Below, piece after piece: positions 15,543-22,785 of a DNA stretch of 64,000 bases (its first letter is position 1; every line of letters begins with the position of its first letter). The notes under the pieces are model-generated. The model made no database searches and was not told the origin of the DNA. It saw nothing but the letters and a program-made list of their open reading frames with translations. Origin of the DNA: Stappia sp. TSB10P1A. GTDB lineage: Bacteria > Pseudomonadota > Alphaproteobacteria > Rhizobiales > Stappiaceae. The stretch spans positions 62,001-126,000 of the forward strand of contig NZ_FYAU01000014.1 in assembly GCF_900185725.1 (NCBI RefSeq), in the 5' to 3' direction. Made by a program: the position numbers and the translations under genes.

Positions 15543-16379
15543 ATGGCCGTGACATTTCGCCCCCTCGCCCTTGCCGCAGCGGCCTGCGCCCTGCTTGCCG
15601 CCGCCGCTCCGCAGGCCCTGGCCAGCGAGCGGGTCGGGGTGGCCAGCGCCGTCAACCAGAGCGCCCAGAGCCAGCGTGGCGGCGCGGGAATGCGCACCAT
15701 CCATATCGGCGCGAATTTCGTGAACCGCGAGAAGATCGAGACCGGGGCCACCGGCCTTGTCCAGGTTCTGCTCGCCGACGGGTCCAACTTCGTCGTCGGC
15801 CCCAATTCCACCCTGGTGATCGACGAATTCGTCTACCGCCCCTCGGAGGGCGGCGGGCGTCTCGTGGCGACGTTCGGCCGGGGCGTTGCCCGCTATGTCG
15901 GCGGCCGCATCTCCAAGGAGCGCGGCGGCGTCACCATCAACACCCGCCAGGGCACCATCGGCGTGCGCGGCGGCATGGCCAATCTGGTCGACCGCGGCAA
16001 CGAGGCGATCTTCTCCTTCCTCTATGGCAAGGACCTGACCTTCACGGGCCGGGACGGCAAGACCACCCGCGTCTACCGGCCGGGCTTCTCGATCCAGGCG
16101 AGCGGCGGGCGGGGCGTCAGCCAGCGCACGCCGCAGGCGCTGATCGCCAGCGTCAACCAGATCCTGGCCGGCAATCGTCCGTCCGGCAAGCGGCCGACCG
16201 GCAGCCAGCTTGCCGGCTTCGCCGCCGTCAATTCCACCCTGCCGCCGTCGGCGGAGGCCCGCTATCCGGCTCCGATTCTCGGCCAGCCGGCTTCGCCGAC
16301 CCAGCTTCTCGATCTCAGCCACGCCAATTCCGTGGTTCTGCAGGCGACCAAGCAGTATTGCGGTTACTACTGCTACTGA
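15543..16379 (+). CDS. Secreted FecR-domain protein (short form)
   Basis: A 278-residue protein with a Sec signal peptide (residues 1-27, cleavage after ALA-SE). The FecR domain covers about 45-160: a beta-rich stretch with the pattern ETGATGLVQVLLADGSNFVVG and the conserved GTIGVRGG turn. Unlike sigma-factor regulators of the FecR type it has no N-terminal cytoplasmic domain or membrane anchor, so it is free in the periplasm or exported. The C-terminal 100 residues are low-complexity and end in QYCGYYCY. It is a clear paralogue of the first 165 residues of the 925-residue protein at 19750 in the same locus. Exact role unknown. Confidence 0.8.
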   Translation: MAVTFRPLALAAAACALLAAAAPQALASERVGVASAVNQSAQSQRGGAGMRTIHIGANFVNREKIETGATGLVQVLLADGSNFVVGPNSTLVIDEFVYRPSEGGGRLVATFGRGVARYVGGRISKERGGVTINTRQGTIGVRGGMANLVDRGNEAIFSFLYGKDLTFTGRDGKTTRVYRPGFSIQASGGRGVSQRTPQALIASVNQILAGNRPSGKRPTGSQLAGFAAVNSTLPPSAEARYPAPILGQPASPTQLLDLSHANSVVLQATKQYCGYYCY

Positions 16380-16539
16380 CGCGCCGTGCGGCCTGGCCGC
16401 GTCATCGGGTACGGTTGATCTGGCTCCGGCAAGCTGGCAGTGTCGCGTGAGCGAAGCCGGGGGCACCTTCGGCCGGGTTTGGCGGCGCGGGCGGGGCCAG
16501 GGCATGGCGCCCGGCGGCGGCATGTGAGGAGTGAGCGGG

Positions 16540-18177
16540 ATGCGGTTGGCTTCGTTCGGCGCGGGTGCGCTGTCTGTGATTGGCGGGATGCTGCTGTCGG
16601 CGTCCCTCGCGGTTGCTCCGGCCCAGGCCGATTTTGCCCTCACCATCCTGCATATCAACGACCTGCACTCGCGGCTTGAGCCGATCAATCGCTTCGATTC
16701 CACCTGCGATGCCAAGGACGATGCCGAGGGCAAGTGCTTCGGCGGCATCGCCCGGATCAAGAGCAAGATCGACGAGCGGCGCGCGGCGCTGGCCGCGGCC
16801 GGCCGCAATGTCATCACCCTGGATGCCGGCGACCAGTTCCAGGGCTCGCTGTTCTACACCACCTACAAGGGGGCAGCGGCGGCCGAGTTCATGAACATGA
16901 TCGGCTTCGACGCGATGGCCGTCGGCAATCACGAGTTCGACGACGGGCCGGCCGGCCTTGCCGCCTTCCTCGAGGCGGTCGAGTTCCCGGTCCTGTCCGG
17001 CAATATCGACGTGGAGAACGAGCCGGCGCTCAAGGGCAAGGTGCCGGGAGCAATCGTGATCGAGGTCGGCGGCGAGAAGATCGGCATCGTCGCGGTGCTG
17101 GCCGAGGACACGGTCGAGACCTCGTCTCCCGGTCCCAATGTCCTTTTCCAGCGCGCCGAGACCTATCTCAAGGGCGCGGTGGAAGGGCTGCAGGCGGCCG
17201 GCGTCAACAAGATCATCGCGCTGACGCATATGGGGCTGCCGCGCGACATGGAGATCGCCGCGCGGGTGGCCGGGGTCGACGTCATCGTCGGCGGCCATTC
17301 CCACACGCTGCTGTCCAACACCCATGAGGGCGCCGCCGGTCCCTATCCGTTGCTGGTGCAGAATCCGGCCGGCCGCCAGGTGCCGGTCGTCCAGGCCTAT
17401 GCCTATGGCAAGTATCTGGGCGAGATCGAGATCGTCTTCGACGATGCCGGCAAGGTGATCTCCGCCGCCGGCAACCCGATCCTGCTCGACGCCTCCGTGC
17501 CGGCCGACAAGGCCGCCGCCGCCCGCCTTGCCGAACTTGCCGCACCGCTGGAGGAAATCCGCGCCAAGGTGATCGGCAGCACCAGCGAGACCATCGACGG
17601 CTCGCGCGAGACCTGCCGTGCCCAGGAGTGCTCGATGGGCAACCTGATCGCCGATGCCATGCTCGACCGCACCAGGGCGCAGGGCGTGCGGATCGTCATC
17701 CAGAACGGCGGCGGCATCCGCGCCTCCATCGATGCCGGCGAGATCACCATGGGCGAGGTGCTCACGGTGCTGCCGTTCCAGAACACCCTCGCGACGTTCC
17801 AGATCAAGGGCCGCGATGTCGTCGCGGCGCTGGAAAACGGCGTGTCGCAGGTGGAGGAGGGGGCCGGCCGCTTCCCGCAGGTCGCCGGTATCCGCTTCTC
17901 CTGGACCCGCGCGCGCAAGCCCGGCGAGGGGCGAATCATCCAGGTCGAGGTTGAGGGCGACGCCGGCTGGGAGCCGCTCGACATGGACGCGACCTATCTG
18001 GTCGCGACCAACAACTACATGCGCGGCGGCGGCGACGGCTACAGGATCTTTTCCGAGGCCGGCACCAATGCCTATGATTATGGTCCGGGGCTGGAAGAAG
18101 TGGTGGCCGACTATATCGGCGCCCGTGCCGACGGCTATGTTCCCTATACCGACGGCCGCATCCGCGAAGTGCAGTAG
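16540..18177 (+). CDS. Periplasmic bifunctional metallophosphatase/5'-nucleotidase (UshA-like)
   Basis: A 545-residue protein with a signal peptide (residues 1-30, cleavage near AQA-DF). The calcineurin-like metal site is complete: DLHSR with Asp41/His43, DAGDQFQG, GNHEFDDG and GGHSHT. The C-terminal substrate-binding domain contains NGGGIRASI and the aromatic clamp region near NYMRGGGDGY. It should hydrolyse extracellular nucleotides to nucleosides for phosphate or purine salvage. ATG 16540 is preferred to GTG 16531 because GAGGAG lies 8 nt before the ATG. A hairpin follows the stop. Its presence between FecR and secretion genes is unexplained. Confidence 0.9.
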   Translation: MRLASFGAGALSVIGGMLLSASLAVAPAQADFALTILHINDLHSRLEPINRFDSTCDAKDDAEGKCFGGIARIKSKIDERRAALAAAGRNVITLDAGDQFQGSLFYTTYKGAAAAEFMNMIGFDAMAVGNHEFDDGPAGLAAFLEAVEFPVLSGNIDVENEPALKGKVPGAIVIEVGGEKIGIVAVLAEDTVETSSPGPNVLFQRAETYLKGAVEGLQAAGVNKIIALTHMGLPRDMEIAARVAGVDVIVGGHSHTLLSNTHEGAAGPYPLLVQNPAGRQVPVVQAYAYGKYLGEIEIVFDDAGKVISAAGNPILLDASVPADKAAAARLAELAAPLEEIRAKVIGSTSETIDGSRETCRAQECSMGNLIADAMLDRTRAQGVRIVIQNGGGIRASIDAGEITMGEVLTVLPFQNTLATFQIKGRDVVAALENGVSQVEEGAGRFPQVAGIRFSWTRARKPGEGRIIQVEVEGDAGWEPLDMDATYLVATNNYMRGGGDGYRIFSEAGTNAYDYGPGLEEVVADYIGARADGYVPYTDGRIREVQ

Positions 18178-18192
18178 CAGGCCCGCACGGCC

Positions 18193-18224
18193 GGGGGCAT
18201 GTGCCCGGATTGCAACATGCCCCC
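18193..18224 (+). terminator. Hairpin after nucleotidase gene
   Basis: A perfect 9-bp stem GGGGGCATG (18193-18201) and CATGCCCCC (18216-18224) with a 14-nt loop, followed by CAATATTT, 16 nt after the stop. This is a probable intrinsic terminator separating the nucleotidase from the secretion genes. Confidence 0.6.
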
Positions 18225-18320
18225 CAATATTTGACGAGGCCTCTTCTTGAGGCAGGACTCGTCGCGGCCGCGTGGCGTAATGTCCTCCCGTTCTAATGTG
18301 TTTTTTGATTGGAGGGGCCG

Positions 18321-19715
18321 GTGAGCTTGGCGGTCTATGCCCGGCGCGAGAGTCTGCGTTTCGCTGGATGTGCCGTGGCCGCCCTTGTCGCGTTTGCCTG
18401 CATGCCGGCGCCGGCTGCGCTTGCGCAGGGCGCTCCGCAGGGCGCGCAGGTGTCGCTGTCTCACGAGCAGCTCCGCGCCCGCCAGGCCGAGTTGCTGGCG
18501 GCGATGATGCGCGATCCGGCCGACCTCGACATCGCCTTCGAATATGCCAACCTGTCCGCCCGCATGGGCGACTACGAGGCCGCGATCGGCACCTTCGAGC
18601 GCATGCTGATCTATGCGCCGGGCCTGCCGCGCATCCAGCTCGAACTCGGCGTGCTCTATTTCCGGCTTGGCTCCTTCGATGCGGCGCGCTCCTATTTCGA
18701 GCAGGCGCTTCAGGCGCCGAACGTGCCGCCGGAGGTGGCTGAGCGCGTCCAGACCTTCATGACCGCGATCGACACGGCCGAGGATCCGGCCAAGTTCTCG
18801 GCGACGGTGATGACCGGCCTGCGCTGGCAGTCGAATGCCAATGCCGGGCCGGGCGGTCGCTTCGTGACGTTGAACGGCATCTCCTTCCTGCTCGACGACA
18901 CCGCCGTCGGCCGCGCCGACTGGAACGCATTCGTTGCCGGCAACGTGCACGCGGCCTATGACCTCGGCACCCAGGGCGACCTGCTGGAGGCGGACCTGCT
19001 GTTCTATGGCGGGCGCTATTTCGACAGCACGCGGCTCAACACCGAACTCGCCGAACTGACCTTCGGGCCGTCGTTCAACATGGCCCGCTTCGACATCGAC
19101 AATGCCCGCTTCGGCGTCTACGGCATCCTCACGGGCGTGCGCCTCAACGAGACCAACTATACCGGCGCCACCGGCTTCGGCGCTCGCTTCGCCATCCAGC
19201 CGGACCCGCGCTCGTCGATCAATGCCAAGGTCGAATACCGCTACCGCTGGTATCGCGATAGCGCCACCTATCCGACCGTCAGCAACCGCAACGGCTATCA
19301 GATCCTGGCGCAGTTGAGCCATGCCTACCAGTTCTCGCAGGCCTGGTCGGGGCGGGTGTCGCTGCTCGGCGACTATGAGGAGGCGGCGGCCCGTTTCGAG
19401 CAGAGCTGGGAGATCGGCGCGACGGCCGGGCTCACCTATCGCTTCGCCTCGCCGGTCGAGATGCTGCGCACCGTCTGGTCGATCGATGCCGATGTCGGCT
19501 ATGTCCGCCGCGCTTTCGCGGCGCCGGACCCGGTGGTCAGCTTCACGGAAAGCCAGCGGGACAACGAGTTCTGGGTGCGCGGCGCGCTCAACGTGCCGTT
19601 CCGCCCGGACATTGCCATGTCCCTGTCCGGGGAGTTCCGTAGGCTGCAATCCAATTACCAGACACGCGATTATTCCAATGCGTCCGTGACGCTCAGTCTG
19701 ATCAAGACGTTCTGA
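18321..19715 (+). CDS. TPR plus outer-membrane beta-barrel protein, Slam (DUF560)-like translocon
   Basis: A 464-residue exported protein. A signal peptide (about 1-36) is followed by tetratricopeptide repeats (about 45-135: GDYEAAIGTFERML, GSFDAARSYFEQAL) and then some 310 residues of alternating amphipathic beta strands ending in a terminal Phe, as outer-membrane barrels do. N-terminal TPR plus a C-terminal barrel of this size, with GLRWQSNANAGPGG at the junction, is the architecture of surface lipoprotein assembly modulators (type XI secretion). Such proteins move a cargo ending in a TbpB-like barrel across the outer membrane, and the next gene, 34 bp downstream, encodes one. The GTG at 18321 is chosen because GGAGGGG (18311-18317) precedes it at 3-4 nt; the TTG at 18309 would bury that site. 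Confidence 0.75.
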   Translation: MSLAVYARRESLRFAGCAVAALVAFACMPAPAALAQGAPQGAQVSLSHEQLRARQAELLAAMMRDPADLDIAFEYANLSARMGDYEAAIGTFERMLIYAPGLPRIQLELGVLYFRLGSFDAARSYFEQALQAPNVPPEVAERVQTFMTAIDTAEDPAKFSATVMTGLRWQSNANAGPGGRFVTLNGISFLLDDTAVGRADWNAFVAGNVHAAYDLGTQGDLLEADLLFYGGRYFDSTRLNTELAELTFGPSFNMARFDIDNARFGVYGILTGVRLNETNYTGATGFGARFAIQPDPRSSINAKVEYRYRWYRDSATYPTVSNRNGYQILAQLSHAYQFSQAWSGRVSLLGDYEEAAARFEQSWEIGATAGLTYRFASPVEMLRTVWSIDADVGYVRRAFAAPDPVVSFTESQRDNEFWVRGALNVPFRPDIAMSLSGEFRRLQSNYQTRDYSNASVTLSLIKTF

Positions 19716-19749
19716 TCTTCTGATTTACGCCGTCCTATCGGGGGCTGAT

Positions 19750-22527
19750 ATGCGCAGGCAGTGTTTCATGGCGGCTCTCGGGGCTGCCCTTGTCGTGGTG
19801 CCGGGTACTGCTACGGCGCGCAACGACGTGGGCGTTGCGGCAGCGGTCAATCAGGACGCGCGGCGCACGCCGCCGGGCGCCGGCACCCGCACCGTGGTGC
19901 TCGGCGACACGCTGATCTATCGCGAGCGGATCGAGACGGCCGGCGAAGGGCTGGTGCAGATCCTGCTGGTCGACGGCTCGACCTTCACCGTCGGCGCCAA
20001 TTCCGACCTTGTCATCGACGAATTCGTCTACGATCCCGATGCCGGGACGGGCAGGCTGGTCGCCTCCTTCGGCAAGGGCGTCGCCCGCTTCGTCGGCGGC
20101 AAGCTCAGCAAGAACCCGGGCGGCGTCACCGTTAACACCCCGGTCGGCACCATCGGCATCCGCGGCGGCATCGCCAATCTCAACCTGACCGACGGCGCGG
20201 GGCGCTTCTCGCTGCTGTTCGGCAAGGAACTGAGCTTCCGCGGCCCGGACGGCCAGACCCGCCGCATCTACGAGGCCGGCTACACGCTCGCCGTCGCCGC
20301 GGCGGCGGCCGGGGGCTACCGGCCGGAGATCCGGCGCACCAGCCAGGCGGACATTGCCGGCGTGCAGCAGGGGCTGGCGGGGCGCGGCGGCCAGACCGGC
20401 GGCGCATCCAGTTCCCCGACCGACGCCCGCGTGCGCGACTCCGGCATCGGCCAGGGCAATTCCGGCCAGCCCGTCGTCACCGTCATGCCGCGCCCGCGGC
20501 CGCTGGTGGTGGCCTCGACCGGCATCGACGACGGCGGCTACATCGTCAGCGACATCGTGCCCGGCGCCAACGGCAACCACATCCGCGAGATCGTCAATGA
20601 TCCGCCCCAGGTGGACGGCACGCAGGTGGTCCTGCGGGTGCTGACGACCGGCTCCTCCTACGATCCCTCGCTGGAAACCTTCACGGTCTCCAACCCCGGC
20701 CGGCAGGGTCTGGTTGGCGGGTCCGCGGCCACCGACACCACCGCCACCTTCACGATCACCGGCGGCGGCACCCAGCTCACCGGGACGATCGGCGGCGAGA
20801 CAATCACCATACCGCTTCCCGCCGGCGGCCAGGCGGCGTTCCGTGTCGTGACCTCGGGCGGGCGCACGGTGGTCGGGACGGTGCACCGCAACGGCAACCA
20901 TTTCCTCGCCTTCACCTTCTTCGAGGAAATCTCGTCCTCGGTGCTGGCGGTCAACGATCCCGTCATCGGCATCTGGGGCACGCGCACCGATCCGGCGACG
21001 CTGCGCGCCACGGCGGTCAACCAGATCCGCCGCTACCGCCTGTCGGCCGATCCGTTGCAGGTCGCCAGGACCGGCGTTGCCCACGACCTTTATTTCCTCA
21101 ACCCGCTGGCGGGAGAGTTGCTCGGCCCCGCCTTCCTGCAGACCGTGCGCACCAGCGATTTCCTCGTCGTCACGGGCTCCGATCTTGACGACGACGACGC
21201 GCGCTACCTTGTCGCCTCGATGTCCATCCAGGGCAGCGGTGCCGCCCAGGCGTCGGCGATCTCGGTGTCCACCGGACTGATCTACGAGGACGAGACGGAA
21301 GGCTTCGTCATCGAGGGGCCGCGGCGCGGCGGCTTCCGCATCTCCGGCTACGACCCTTCGGTGTTGCATGGGGGGCCTGTCGATTCCGTGCCGGGCGCGG
21401 ATGGGGGCCACATCTTCGGCCCGAACGCGGAGAATTTCGTGCTCGGCTTCGATGTCGGCGGGCTTGAGACCGGCACCGACGTGTCGGCGCGCGGGCCGTA
21501 TCCCTATGGCTCGTTGACCGAGATGGTTTCCGGCTACACCCATGTCGGCCAGCTTGAGTCGGTCTCGCCGACGGGCGAGTTCATCCGCACCAGCCGGGTG
21601 CTCAACGGCTATGCCTCCGGCATGGTCGAGGCGGCGACGAATGGCGGTGTCGCAACGCCGTTCTGGTCCCTTGCTCCGGAGATGCTCACCATCGCCTTCG
21701 ATGCCGGCAACAATTCGGTCGGCGCGTCGATGACGATCCTCGACACGTTCGACGGCGACGATCACCTTGCCGGCCTGGTGCTCGGCTTCGGCGACAGCCT
21801 GTTCACCTGGAGCGGCGACGGTCATTCGGCCCTGATCGACGACGATCGCTACGCGTTGAGCGGCAATTTCGGTGAGACCTTCGCCGTGACCGACGATGGC
21901 GAGATCATCGCGCCGGACAGCAACCCGCGCAGCTACATGATACCTTCGACGCTGGTGGCGGGGGCCGACGACGCCCTGTTCACGGATGTCGCGCGCTGCA
22001 CCTGCGCCTTCCTGGAATGGGGCTATTGGGGCACCCGCTTCCGCGGCGAGGACACGTCCGAGACGGCGCCGTTCGATCCCCGGCGGCGCGATTTCGTCCA
22101 TCTCGGCACCTGGGCGGCGGGCGATGTCTCCACCATCGGCGAGCTGCCGCTGACCGGCACGGCCTCCTATGCCGGCCATGCGGTCGGCAGCGTCACCAAC
22201 ATCACCAATGATGGCCAGGCACAATATCTGGCGGCCGGCAATTTCAACATGACCTTCGATTTCGGCGCGCGCACCGGCGAAGCCAGCATCAGCAATTTCG
22301 ATGGTCGCAGCTTCGGCGGCTCGGTCTACTCCCCCACCGGCAGCCCGAGCGACCTCAGCCATTTCGTCGGCGGCCTCGGCAACATGAGCGAGACGGTGTC
22401 GGGCGTGCTGACCGGCTCTTTCGTGAACGGTCCGATGGGCGCGGCGCAAGGGGTGGTCGGCAGCTTCGGCATCTCCGACATCACCGGCGCCTACACCGCC
22501 ACCGGCGTCGTCGTCGGCCAGCGCTAG
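19750..22527 (+). CDS. Large secreted protein: FecR domain plus TbpB-like C-terminal barrel (probable Slam cargo)
   Basis: A 925-residue protein with a signal peptide (about 1-23, TATA-RN). It has no lipobox cysteine: the single early Cys is at position 5. A FecR domain covers about 45-165 (VQILLVDGSTFTVGANSDL, GTIGIRGG). A long beta-rich middle region of unknown family follows. The last 120 residues have the pattern of transferrin-binding-protein-like barrels (GTASYAGHAVG, AAGNFNMTFDFGARTG, SISNFDGRSFGG). That barrel is the recognition handle of Slam/type XI cargo. The translocon candidate is the preceding gene. The likely fate is release or display at the cell surface; the ligand is unknown. 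GGGGG precedes the ATG. Confidence 0.72.
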   Translation: MRRQCFMAALGAALVVVPGTATARNDVGVAAAVNQDARRTPPGAGTRTVVLGDTLIYRERIETAGEGLVQILLVDGSTFTVGANSDLVIDEFVYDPDAGTGRLVASFGKGVARFVGGKLSKNPGGVTVNTPVGTIGIRGGIANLNLTDGAGRFSLLFGKELSFRGPDGQTRRIYEAGYTLAVAAAAAGGYRPEIRRTSQADIAGVQQGLAGRGGQTGGASSSPTDARVRDSGIGQGNSGQPVVTVMPRPRPLVVASTGIDDGGYIVSDIVPGANGNHIREIVNDPPQVDGTQVVLRVLTTGSSYDPSLETFTVSNPGRQGLVGGSAATDTTATFTITGGGTQLTGTIGGETITIPLPAGGQAAFRVVTSGGRTVVGTVHRNGNHFLAFTFFEEISSSVLAVNDPVIGIWGTRTDPATLRATAVNQIRRYRLSADPLQVARTGVAHDLYFLNPLAGELLGPAFLQTVRTSDFLVVTGSDLDDDDARYLVASMSIQGSGAAQASAISVSTGLIYEDETEGFVIEGPRRGGFRISGYDPSVLHGGPVDSVPGADGGHIFGPNAENFVLGFDVGGLETGTDVSARGPYPYGSLTEMVSGYTHVGQLESVSPTGEFIRTSRVLNGYASGMVEAATNGGVATPFWSLAPEMLTIAFDAGNNSVGASMTILDTFDGDDHLAGLVLGFGDSLFTWSGDGHSALIDDDRYALSGNFGETFAVTDDGEIIAPDSNPRSYMIPSTLVAGADDALFTDVARCTCAFLEWGYWGTRFRGEDTSETAPFDPRRRDFVHLGTWAAGDVSTIGELPLTGTASYAGHAVGSVTNITNDGQAQYLAAGNFNMTFDFGARTGEASISNFDGRSFGGSVYSPTGSPSDLSHFVGGLGNMSETVSGVLTGSFVNGPMGAAQGVVGSFGISDITGAYTATGVVVGQR

Positions 22528-22709: not shown

Positions 22710-22785
22710 GCCCAGGTAGCTCAGTTGGTAGAGCAGCGGATTGAAAATCCGCGTGTCGCTGGTTCGATTCCGGCCCTGGGCACCA
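22710..22785 (+). tRNA. tRNA-Phe (GAA), CCA encoded
   Basis: A complete 76-nt cloverleaf. The acceptor stem GCCCAGG/CCTGGGC is perfect, the D-arm carries GCTCAGTTGGTAGAGC, and the anticodon loop TTGAAAA has GAA at positions 34-36 (22743-22745). The T-arm shows GGTTCGATTCC and the gene ends in genomically encoded ACCA. No matching 3'-end direct repeat or integrase gene is seen nearby, so there is no sign that it serves as an attachment site here. Confidence 0.97.

Follow-up and report, generated by a model that had tools for sequence, protein, structure and literature searches.

A putative divergent type XI (Slam) secretion pair with a FecR-headed, TbpB-like cargo in Stappia sp. TSB10P1A

Can a protein that begins with a FecR domain be the cargo of a type XI (Slam) secretion system? 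The question is raised by a locus (positions 15543–22527) on a 64,000-nucleotide stretch of contig NZ_FYAU01000014.1 (the window) from the alphaproteobacterium Stappia sp. TSB10P1A, whose genome of 5.13 Mb is spread across 64 contigs. Here, an outer-membrane protein (OMP) composed of tetratricopeptide repeats (TPRs) and a β-barrel is encoded ahead of a 925-residue protein with a FecR domain near its N-terminus. An earlier reading of the letters without database searches (the sequence-only reading) took the OMP for a Slam/DUF560 protein and its neighbour for the cargo, recognised through a C-terminal TbpB-type barrel, here called the handle; its coordinates, the 34 bp spacing (19715 to 19750) and the length of the neighbour are right by the list of open reading frames (ORFs). 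The present analysis is founded on computed protein families and folds, the homology of the handle and the pairing of the genes, together with the CHASE2 genes that stand nearby in some of the relatives. The locus is probably a divergent type XI (Slam) secretion pair with a FecR-tethered, TbpB-like cargo.

The outer-membrane protein and the Slam family

Several TPR models match the OMP above their Pfam cut-offs, and its AlphaFold2 model (mean pLDDT 92.1) consists of TPR helices followed by 14 long strands, the strand number given for the type XI secretion system (T11SS; PMC8406197). The Slam models themselves stay below their Pfam cut-offs, which weighs against the assignment: SlipAM/DUF560 (PF04575) reaches 16.4 bits (cut-off 22) and TPR_Slam 14.8 bits (cut-off 35.2). 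Since Pfam and NCBIfam models were inconclusive on the window proteins alone, the case for a Slam is built on family profiles. Barrel-only profiles, from which the TPRs had been removed, were aligned by hhalign with a reference set of 13 strong PF04575 proteins. The match was 98.5% over 283 columns for 23 sequences (the window OMP and 22 of its family), 99.7% over 291 columns for 31 sequences (those 23 and eight distant ones) and 99.8% over 289 columns for another set of 43 sequences. When the reference set was altered, the 31-sequence profile gave at most 0.56% in 20 column shuffles and 9.8% with the reversed set. Furthermore, among 69 barrel relatives (the window OMP and 68 of 77 candidate barrels), 13 match SlipAM at an expectation value (E) of 0.01 or less (best 1.7e-8) and 13 likewise match TPR_Slam.

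Could the barrel come from another outer-membrane family, be it a porin, a FadL-like protein or a polysaccharide exporter, with an incidental neighbourhood? The SlipAM score below cut-off is compatible with this, as are the first 50 Foldseek matches of the OMP, assorted porins, FadL, BcsC and PelBC, a mixture that was not counted as evidence for a Slam; a solved relative was sought for one Slam, and none was found. Searches of the PDB with the single OMP sequence and with its profile matched TPR-type proteins, and a PF04575 search of the whole genome returned nothing, which says little given that it was also silent in all 14 control genomes. The FadL barrel is likewise 14-stranded. As a control, it gave 1.4% with the 23-sequence and 2.0% with the 43-sequence profile, and 70.3% with the 31-sequence profile, a match of 142 columns only that is the further point in favour of another family. 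The full-length Slam matches and the conserved pairing with a handle of Slam-cargo type (see below) argue against it. A plain FadL-type barrel is ruled out by these controls, the partial match being noted, and derivation from any other family, which the sequence-only reading had named as an outcome that would overturn it, is very improbable. The Slam/DUF560 assignment of that reading thus stands at family level, through the alignments, the SlipAM matches of relatives and the TPR-plus-14-strand architecture, although the window protein itself remains below the Pfam cut-off. We regard the OMP with high confidence as a Slam-family protein.

The handle and the FecR head of the long protein

The FecR domain is the sole Pfam domain above cut-off in the long protein. 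Its AlphaFold2 model (mean pLDDT 85.9) shows a beta-rich FecR part (about residues 28–200), a low-confidence linker (about 215–285), a beta-rich middle and finally eight strands (804–924). This tail is matched weakly by slam_lipo (NF041636, NCBIfam; E 6.3e-5, 23.3 bits, cut-off 80) and very weakly by the Pfam models FHBP_C (E 0.02) and TbpB_B_D (PF01298; E 0.067, 14.1 of 26 bits); the scores under the slam_lipo and TbpB_B_D cut-offs count against a cargo. A handle profile built from 51 of 53 cargos matched solved structures of GNA2132/NHBA (E 7e-8), many of fHbp (from E 1.7e-6) and LbpB (E 0.0044). The first 23 of the 29 matches (E≤0.031) are GNA2132, fHbp or its fusions, lipoproteins of that type, or LbpB, and the three unrelated ones all have an E of 0.31 or more. 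By fold, TbpB ranks first in Foldseek, and 38 of the 39 matches with E≤0.001 are TbpB, LbpB, fHbp, NHBA or HphA, the remaining one being an LptDE entry with a probability of 0.25. Alignment of the handle with 19 TbpB_B_D stretches by hhalign gave 97.4% over 127 columns, as against at most 0.27% in 20 shuffles, at most 0.6% with three OMP profiles and 0.4% with the reversed set. NHBA and HphA are Slam-dependent. TbpB, LbpB and fHbp are likewise named as Slam substrates (PMC8406197).

The cargo tail is therefore homologous to solved proteins of Slam-cargo type. The last 120 residues had been read as a TbpB-type barrel from the letters, and both the eight strands and the matches to NHBA, fHbp, LbpB and TbpB in sequence and fold bear this out. 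The accompanying view that known Slam cargos carry metal- or haem-binding handles needs correction, their shared recognition part being the C-terminal barrel instead. Of the 53 cargos, 52 are relatives picked by FecR and handle hidden Markov models (HMMs) that were themselves seeded from the window and bootstrapped on those same loci; Pfam and NCBIfam counts provide an independent check, with FecR found at E≤0.01 in 52, slam_lipo in 43, FHBP_C in 25 and TbpB_B_D in 12 of the 53. For residues 286–645, sequence searches gave no convincing solved relative.

What might the FecR head do? The domain (PF04773) lies above cut-off both in the long protein and in a second, short one, which had rightly been placed at the head of the locus, and these two genes account for the FecR matches of the source genome. 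Regulation of the FecIRA type was set aside as no anti-sigma N-terminal domain was matched: in the short protein no Pfam model other than PF04773 matches down to E 1, and the weak additional Pfam matches of the long protein include no such domain. The single PDB match of a profile of 38 FecR sequences is 5ix9, “Antifreeze protein” (E 1.3e-6), which corresponds to the N-terminal part of the ice adhesin of Marinomonas. In addition, retention_LapA (NF033682, NCBIfam) matches 17 of the 53 cargos at E≤0.01. In LapA, the N-terminal domain responsible for retention lies in the periplasm and keeps the adhesin in its outer-membrane channel (PMC6890996). Because the FecR domain weakly resembles such modules, a tether role is proposed, and by this analogy FecR would most likely serve as a retention-like tether that holds the cargo after Slam-type export. 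Two observations speak against the analogy, namely that the 5ix9 match is weak and spans positions 3–73 of 177 and that the window cargo scores 13.7 of the 50 bits required by retention_LapA.

Alternatively, the locus could encode an ordinary type XI pair whose whole cargo is released or displayed in the manner of haemophilin, with FecR as an extracellular adhesive or ligand-binding domain. The cargo N-terminus is hydrophobic by eye. It contains no lipobox by pattern search (a lipobox-like pattern occurs in 3 of the 53 cargos), which would suit such a pair, and TXISS-1B is described as having soluble cargos whose signals are of the signal peptidase I type (PMC8406197). The NCBIfam models for the Lsa33 surface adhesin and the LipL45 lipoprotein, which match 27 and 10 of the 53 cargos at E≤0.01, point the same way. 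The resemblance to retention modules and the CHASE2 neighbours of relatives suggest a periplasmic FecR instead, and we consider an ordinary pair unlikely. For the FecR domain, a role as tether or reporter is somewhat favoured over that of a free surface domain.

Gene pairing and CHASE2 neighbours

Are barrel and cargo kept together in other genomes? From the barrel side, the best 80 of 181 barrel loci were inspected. A FecR-plus-handle protein lies directly downstream of the barrel in 52 of them, its start between -95 bp and +130 bp from the barrel stop (median about 10 bp, with mechanically set starts). A FecR protein lacking the handle in the same ORF was found in eight: four run off the contig (L156, L160, L172, L184); L169 stops 17 bp short of the contig end; L124 is split, its handle falling in the following ORF; in L120 a FecR-plus-handle gene comes next; and L143 encodes a plain 319-residue FecR protein. 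The other 20 comprise four at a contig edge, one with the FecR-plus-handle gene upstream (L194), two with a short FecR gene upstream (L126 and L127), and 13 without any FecR gene in the locus DNA examined.

The handle-side sample covered 385 alphaproteobacterial genomes and overlaps the 80-locus set; its genome searches scored part of the first-look candidates, and absences are soft. Of these genomes, 45 are matched by the handle profile, 93 by the barrel profile and 39 by both. A strong handle (E≤1e-20) occurs in 25 genomes, all of which also hold the barrel, compared with 68 of the 360 others; the Fisher tests on these counts ignore kinship. The weaker matches of the handle profile, only some of which were inspected for FecR, include short ORFs that probably encode ordinary cargos. 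When 35 handle places were fetched (32 of the 36 with E≤7.5e-23 and three weaker ones), nine lay within 250 bp of the upstream contig end, with FecR present in three and not in six; the remaining 26 handle proteins all carry FecR at their N-terminus. The barrel adjoins 17 of these 26, and all 17 barrels are also matched by an HMM of strong Slams.

The pairing of FecR-headed cargo and Slam-like barrel is widespread among alphaproteobacteria, and related sets occur beyond that class. The conserved co-occurrence that the sequence-only reading proposed as a check is found in the 52 of 80 barrel loci, the 17 of 26 handle loci and the 25 strong-handle genomes. The FecR-headed cargo, which it suggested as a new cargo class seen in an alphaproteobacterium, is no single-species oddity but part of this wider set.

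Closer to the window, the sample consisted of 37 genomes (its own and 36 of the genus and family; one with a TPR-only match was not counted). The barrel is encoded in 25 and the long cargo in 16 (broken in one), all of them within the 25. In this sample the long cargo never occurs without the barrel, and the barrel can occur with a short FecR partner: nine of the 25 lack a full-length long cargo, and in eight of these the short FecR and nucleotidase genes adjoin the barrel gene, while in the ninth the locus starts at the edge of its contig. FecR-like matches turn up elsewhere in two of the nine genomes, within other ORFs of great length.

Several of these results weigh against a strict secretion pair. 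A plain secretion reading leaves the genomes with barrel and short FecR only unexplained. Given the nine genomes lacking a full-length long cargo and the 13 barrel loci in which no FecR gene was seen, the barrel may do other work. Conversely, 9 of the 26 handle loci have no adjacent barrel (five in one genome); all four genomes concerned encode a barrel elsewhere. Even so, export of the 925-residue cargo by the OMP is considered likely. We infer barrel export, FecR tethering and signalling along the following lines. The cargo would reach the periplasm; its eight-stranded C-terminal barrel would serve for recognition, and its TbpB-like part would be moved to the cell surface by the TPR-barrel protein. 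The FecR domain would most likely fold or bind in the periplasm and hold the cargo on the envelope, and the tethered cargo could report surface events to CHASE2-type periplasmic receptors.

Further observations concern the make-up of barrel loci. At L138, L140, L142, L155 and L166 a single barrel gene is followed by two or three FecR genes in tandem, whose middle regions are long or short. The barrel and cargo genes of L051 (G027) are fragmented into several ORFs, as are the nucleotidase and cargo genes of L124. L175 carries the pair in a metagenome-assembled genome labelled Planctomycetota, which could reflect transfer or mis-binning. In four uncultured bacteria (L159, L168, L182, L187) the barrel stands in a different, shared neighbourhood with no FecR gene found; there it may have an additional role or a cargo encoded elsewhere.

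Does the pair also serve sensing? A CHASE2 protein is encoded upstream, downstream or divergently in 17 of the 80 barrel loci and in 12 of the 17 barrel-adjacent handle loci, against a background of one to five CHASE2 matches in each of 34 of the 37 genomes of the window's kin. CHASE2 was found in 6 of 30 PF04575 loci, and neither in 25 TbpB_B_D loci (82,669 bases) nor in 23 loci of the window's family (400,523 bases). Eighteen PF04575 loci, 16 of them outside the class, were chosen rather than drawn (five for CHASE2, the rest for other, mostly weaker PF04575 matches); FecR adjoins the OMP in nine (L268 by coordinates only) and CHASE2 in seven. One of them, L254, combines a FecR-plus-handle protein, an OMP with 70.3 bits for SlipAM (cut-off 22) and a CHASE2 protein that has a cyclase domain; its counterpart at L258 has histidine-kinase parts in place of the cyclase. 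At L256, outside the class, one protein holds both FecR (51.7 bits, cut-off 24) and TbpB_B_D (30.3 bits, cut-off 26) and adjoins an OMP with 57.3 bits for SlipAM. As the output part of CHASE2 proteins varies between cyclase and kinase while the periplasmic part is constant, contact in the periplasm is indicated, and the receptor cyclases and kinases beside the pair in some relatives, among them proteobacteria of other classes, suggest a sensory role.

SlipAM-matching proteins outside the class adjoin CHASE2 cyclases or kinases at L096, L098, L100, L101, L109, L111, L254–L258, L268 and L271, and a FecR protein is also present in the seven larger of these loci (L254–L258, L268, L271). At L053 (G040), a CHASE2 gene is divergent to a distant TPR-barrel relative, followed by a gene for a 381-residue FecR protein.

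These neighbours bear equally on an explanation without secretion, in which the barrel would be an outer-membrane receptor (of the type of Sinorhizobium NsrA or FecA) and the FecR proteins would work in the periplasm, transducing to CHASE2 cyclases or kinases. It is treated as the main rival because of described NsrA-CHASE2 signalling, a FecR gene in the cyaD1-clr region and CHASE2-FecR operons: NsrA signals via CHASE2 cyclases (PMC7529298, PMC13001267); the FecR-domain gene smc02177 lies by its number between cyaD1 (smc02176) and smc02178, although it is not needed for perceiving the signal tested (PMC5498481); and the operons are described in Burkholderiales (PMC5192318, a 2016 paper that calls the cues of CHASE2 domains unknown). 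A receptor would also fit the varied orientation of the CHASE2 genes near the barrel, their low number in the genomes of the window's kin, and L257, L258 and L271, outside the class, whose FecR partners beside Slam-like OMPs and CHASE2 have no detected handle. The same holds for Nitrobacter-type loci (L173, L174, L179, L180, L183, L188), where a TPR-barrel stands with a CHASE2 cyclase and no FecR was found at the locus. Against a receptor stand the homology of the cargo tail to Slam-cargo handles, the relation of the OMP to Slams rather than to FadL-type barrels, and NsrA itself, which is much larger, its barrel part being given as residues 600–1200. Moreover, no CHASE2 gene was found in the 64-kb window or in any of the 23 family loci, and the two CHASE2 genes of the source genome lie on another contig, which equally speaks against a sensory role for this secretion pair. 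A receptor without export is accordingly judged unlikely. More conceivable, while still tentative, is a sensory form of type XI secretion, in which the pore would thread a TbpB-like arm outward and a periplasmic FecR would act as plug and as reporter to CHASE2 cyclases or kinases. If true, it would unite secretion, tethering and signalling in one device across alphaproteobacteria and other classes.

Locus layout and known systems

On the plus strand, the short FecR gene is followed by a 5'-nucleotidase/UshA-like gene, the barrel gene and the long FecR gene, and then by tRNA-Phe at 22710–22785 (Table 1). The sequence-only reading had the FecR, barrel and cargo genes right and did not mention the nucleotidase gene between the short FecR gene and the barrel. 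ORF starts were set mechanically; in its longest form the barrel ORF begins with the TTG at 18309, while the in-frame GTG at 18321 gives 464 residues. In many Stappia-group loci, where no CHASE2 gene turned up, the nucleotidase gene adjoins the barrel gene as well. The short FecR protein has no detectable C-terminal handle, and in 12 of 13 aligned Stappia-group copies it ends in a two-cysteine tail. Scanned neighbours include AMP-binding, 5'-nucleotidase and TctA proteins (Pfam), with no TonB or haem genes among them.

Table 1. Features of the locus, in window coordinates.
Feature	Coordinates	Strand	Evidence and remarks
Short FecR-domain protein, 278 aa	15543..16379	+	Export-type N-terminus; Pfam FecR 29 bits (cut-off 24)
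5'-nucleotidase/UshA-like protein (NT5)	16531..18177	+	Pfam 5_nucleotid_C E 7.5e-44, Metallophos E 2.1e-13
Slam-like outer-membrane protein, 464 aa	18321..19715	+	AlphaFold2 model with TPR helices and 14 strands; hhalign against Slam set
TPR region of Slam-like protein, residues 48–153	18462..18779	+	Pfam; AlphaFold2 model
14-stranded barrel of Slam-like protein, residues 157–463	18789..19709	+	AlphaFold2 model
FecR-headed, TbpB-like predicted cargo, 925 aa	19750..22527	+	No lipobox pattern; Pfam, NCBIfam, AlphaFold2, Foldseek
Cargo FecR domain, residues 60–159	19927..20226	+	Pfam FecR 33 bits (cut-off 24)
Cargo beta-rich middle, residues about 290–767, possible first lobe and pedestal	20617..22050	+	AlphaFold2 model
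Cargo C-terminal eight-stranded handle barrel, residues 804–924	22159..22521	+	AlphaFold2, Foldseek, profile comparisons

Among the papers listed by a literature search that did not extend to supplements or subscription papers, none combined a T11SS term with FecR or CHASE2. FecR does not occur in the main text of three T11SS papers (PMC12282271, PMC8406197, PMC5449769), nor CHASE in that of the first two, supplements lying outside the search. In Lysobacter, a FecR regulator is described near a Slam-dependent TbpB-like protein, as separate proteins (PMC11233812), and for Acinetobacter slam and fecIR are given as separate genes. Within the literature so covered, the FecR head, the missing lipobox in a type XI setting and the link to receptors are undescribed. 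The seven experimentally verified T11SS OMPs represent one animal-associated cluster of the family (PMC12282271). The present loci add a large environmental set with a constant FecR head, a constant handle and a recurrent receptor neighbour, which makes exports of divergent Slams, surface retention of lipid-less cargo and CHASE2 cues in environmental bacteria testable; the pairing with a CHASE2 receptor enzyme in some relatives hints that this secretion family may also serve sensing.

How does the locus compare with systems already known? With FecIRA-type regulation it shares the FecR domain (PF04773), whereas its FecR proteins have export-type N-termini and no matched anti-sigma N-terminal domain. 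The LapA-type retention module of RTX adhesins, which use type 1 secretion, is weakly related in sequence and likewise N-terminal; the partner here is a Slam-like barrel and not a TolC-like protein, and the retention model stays below its cut-off. NsrA-CyaK of Sinorhizobium meliloti resembles those relatives in which an outer-membrane barrel stands with CHASE2 receptor cyclases, but NsrA is much larger by its description. Lipoprotein Slam cargos are anchored by an N-terminal lipid, while the present cargo shows no lipobox. The closest likeness is to type XI/Slam systems (DUF560, PF04575) with cargos of the TbpB, fHbp and haemophilin type, which share the TPR-plus-14-stranded OMP, the C-terminal eight-stranded handle and the adjacent genes. 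From these the locus differs in an OMP that scores under the Pfam cut-off, in a FecR-headed cargo without a lipobox, and in neighbours other than TonB or haem genes, CHASE2 adjoining in part of the relatives; its OMP family and its handle are of the known type XI kind.

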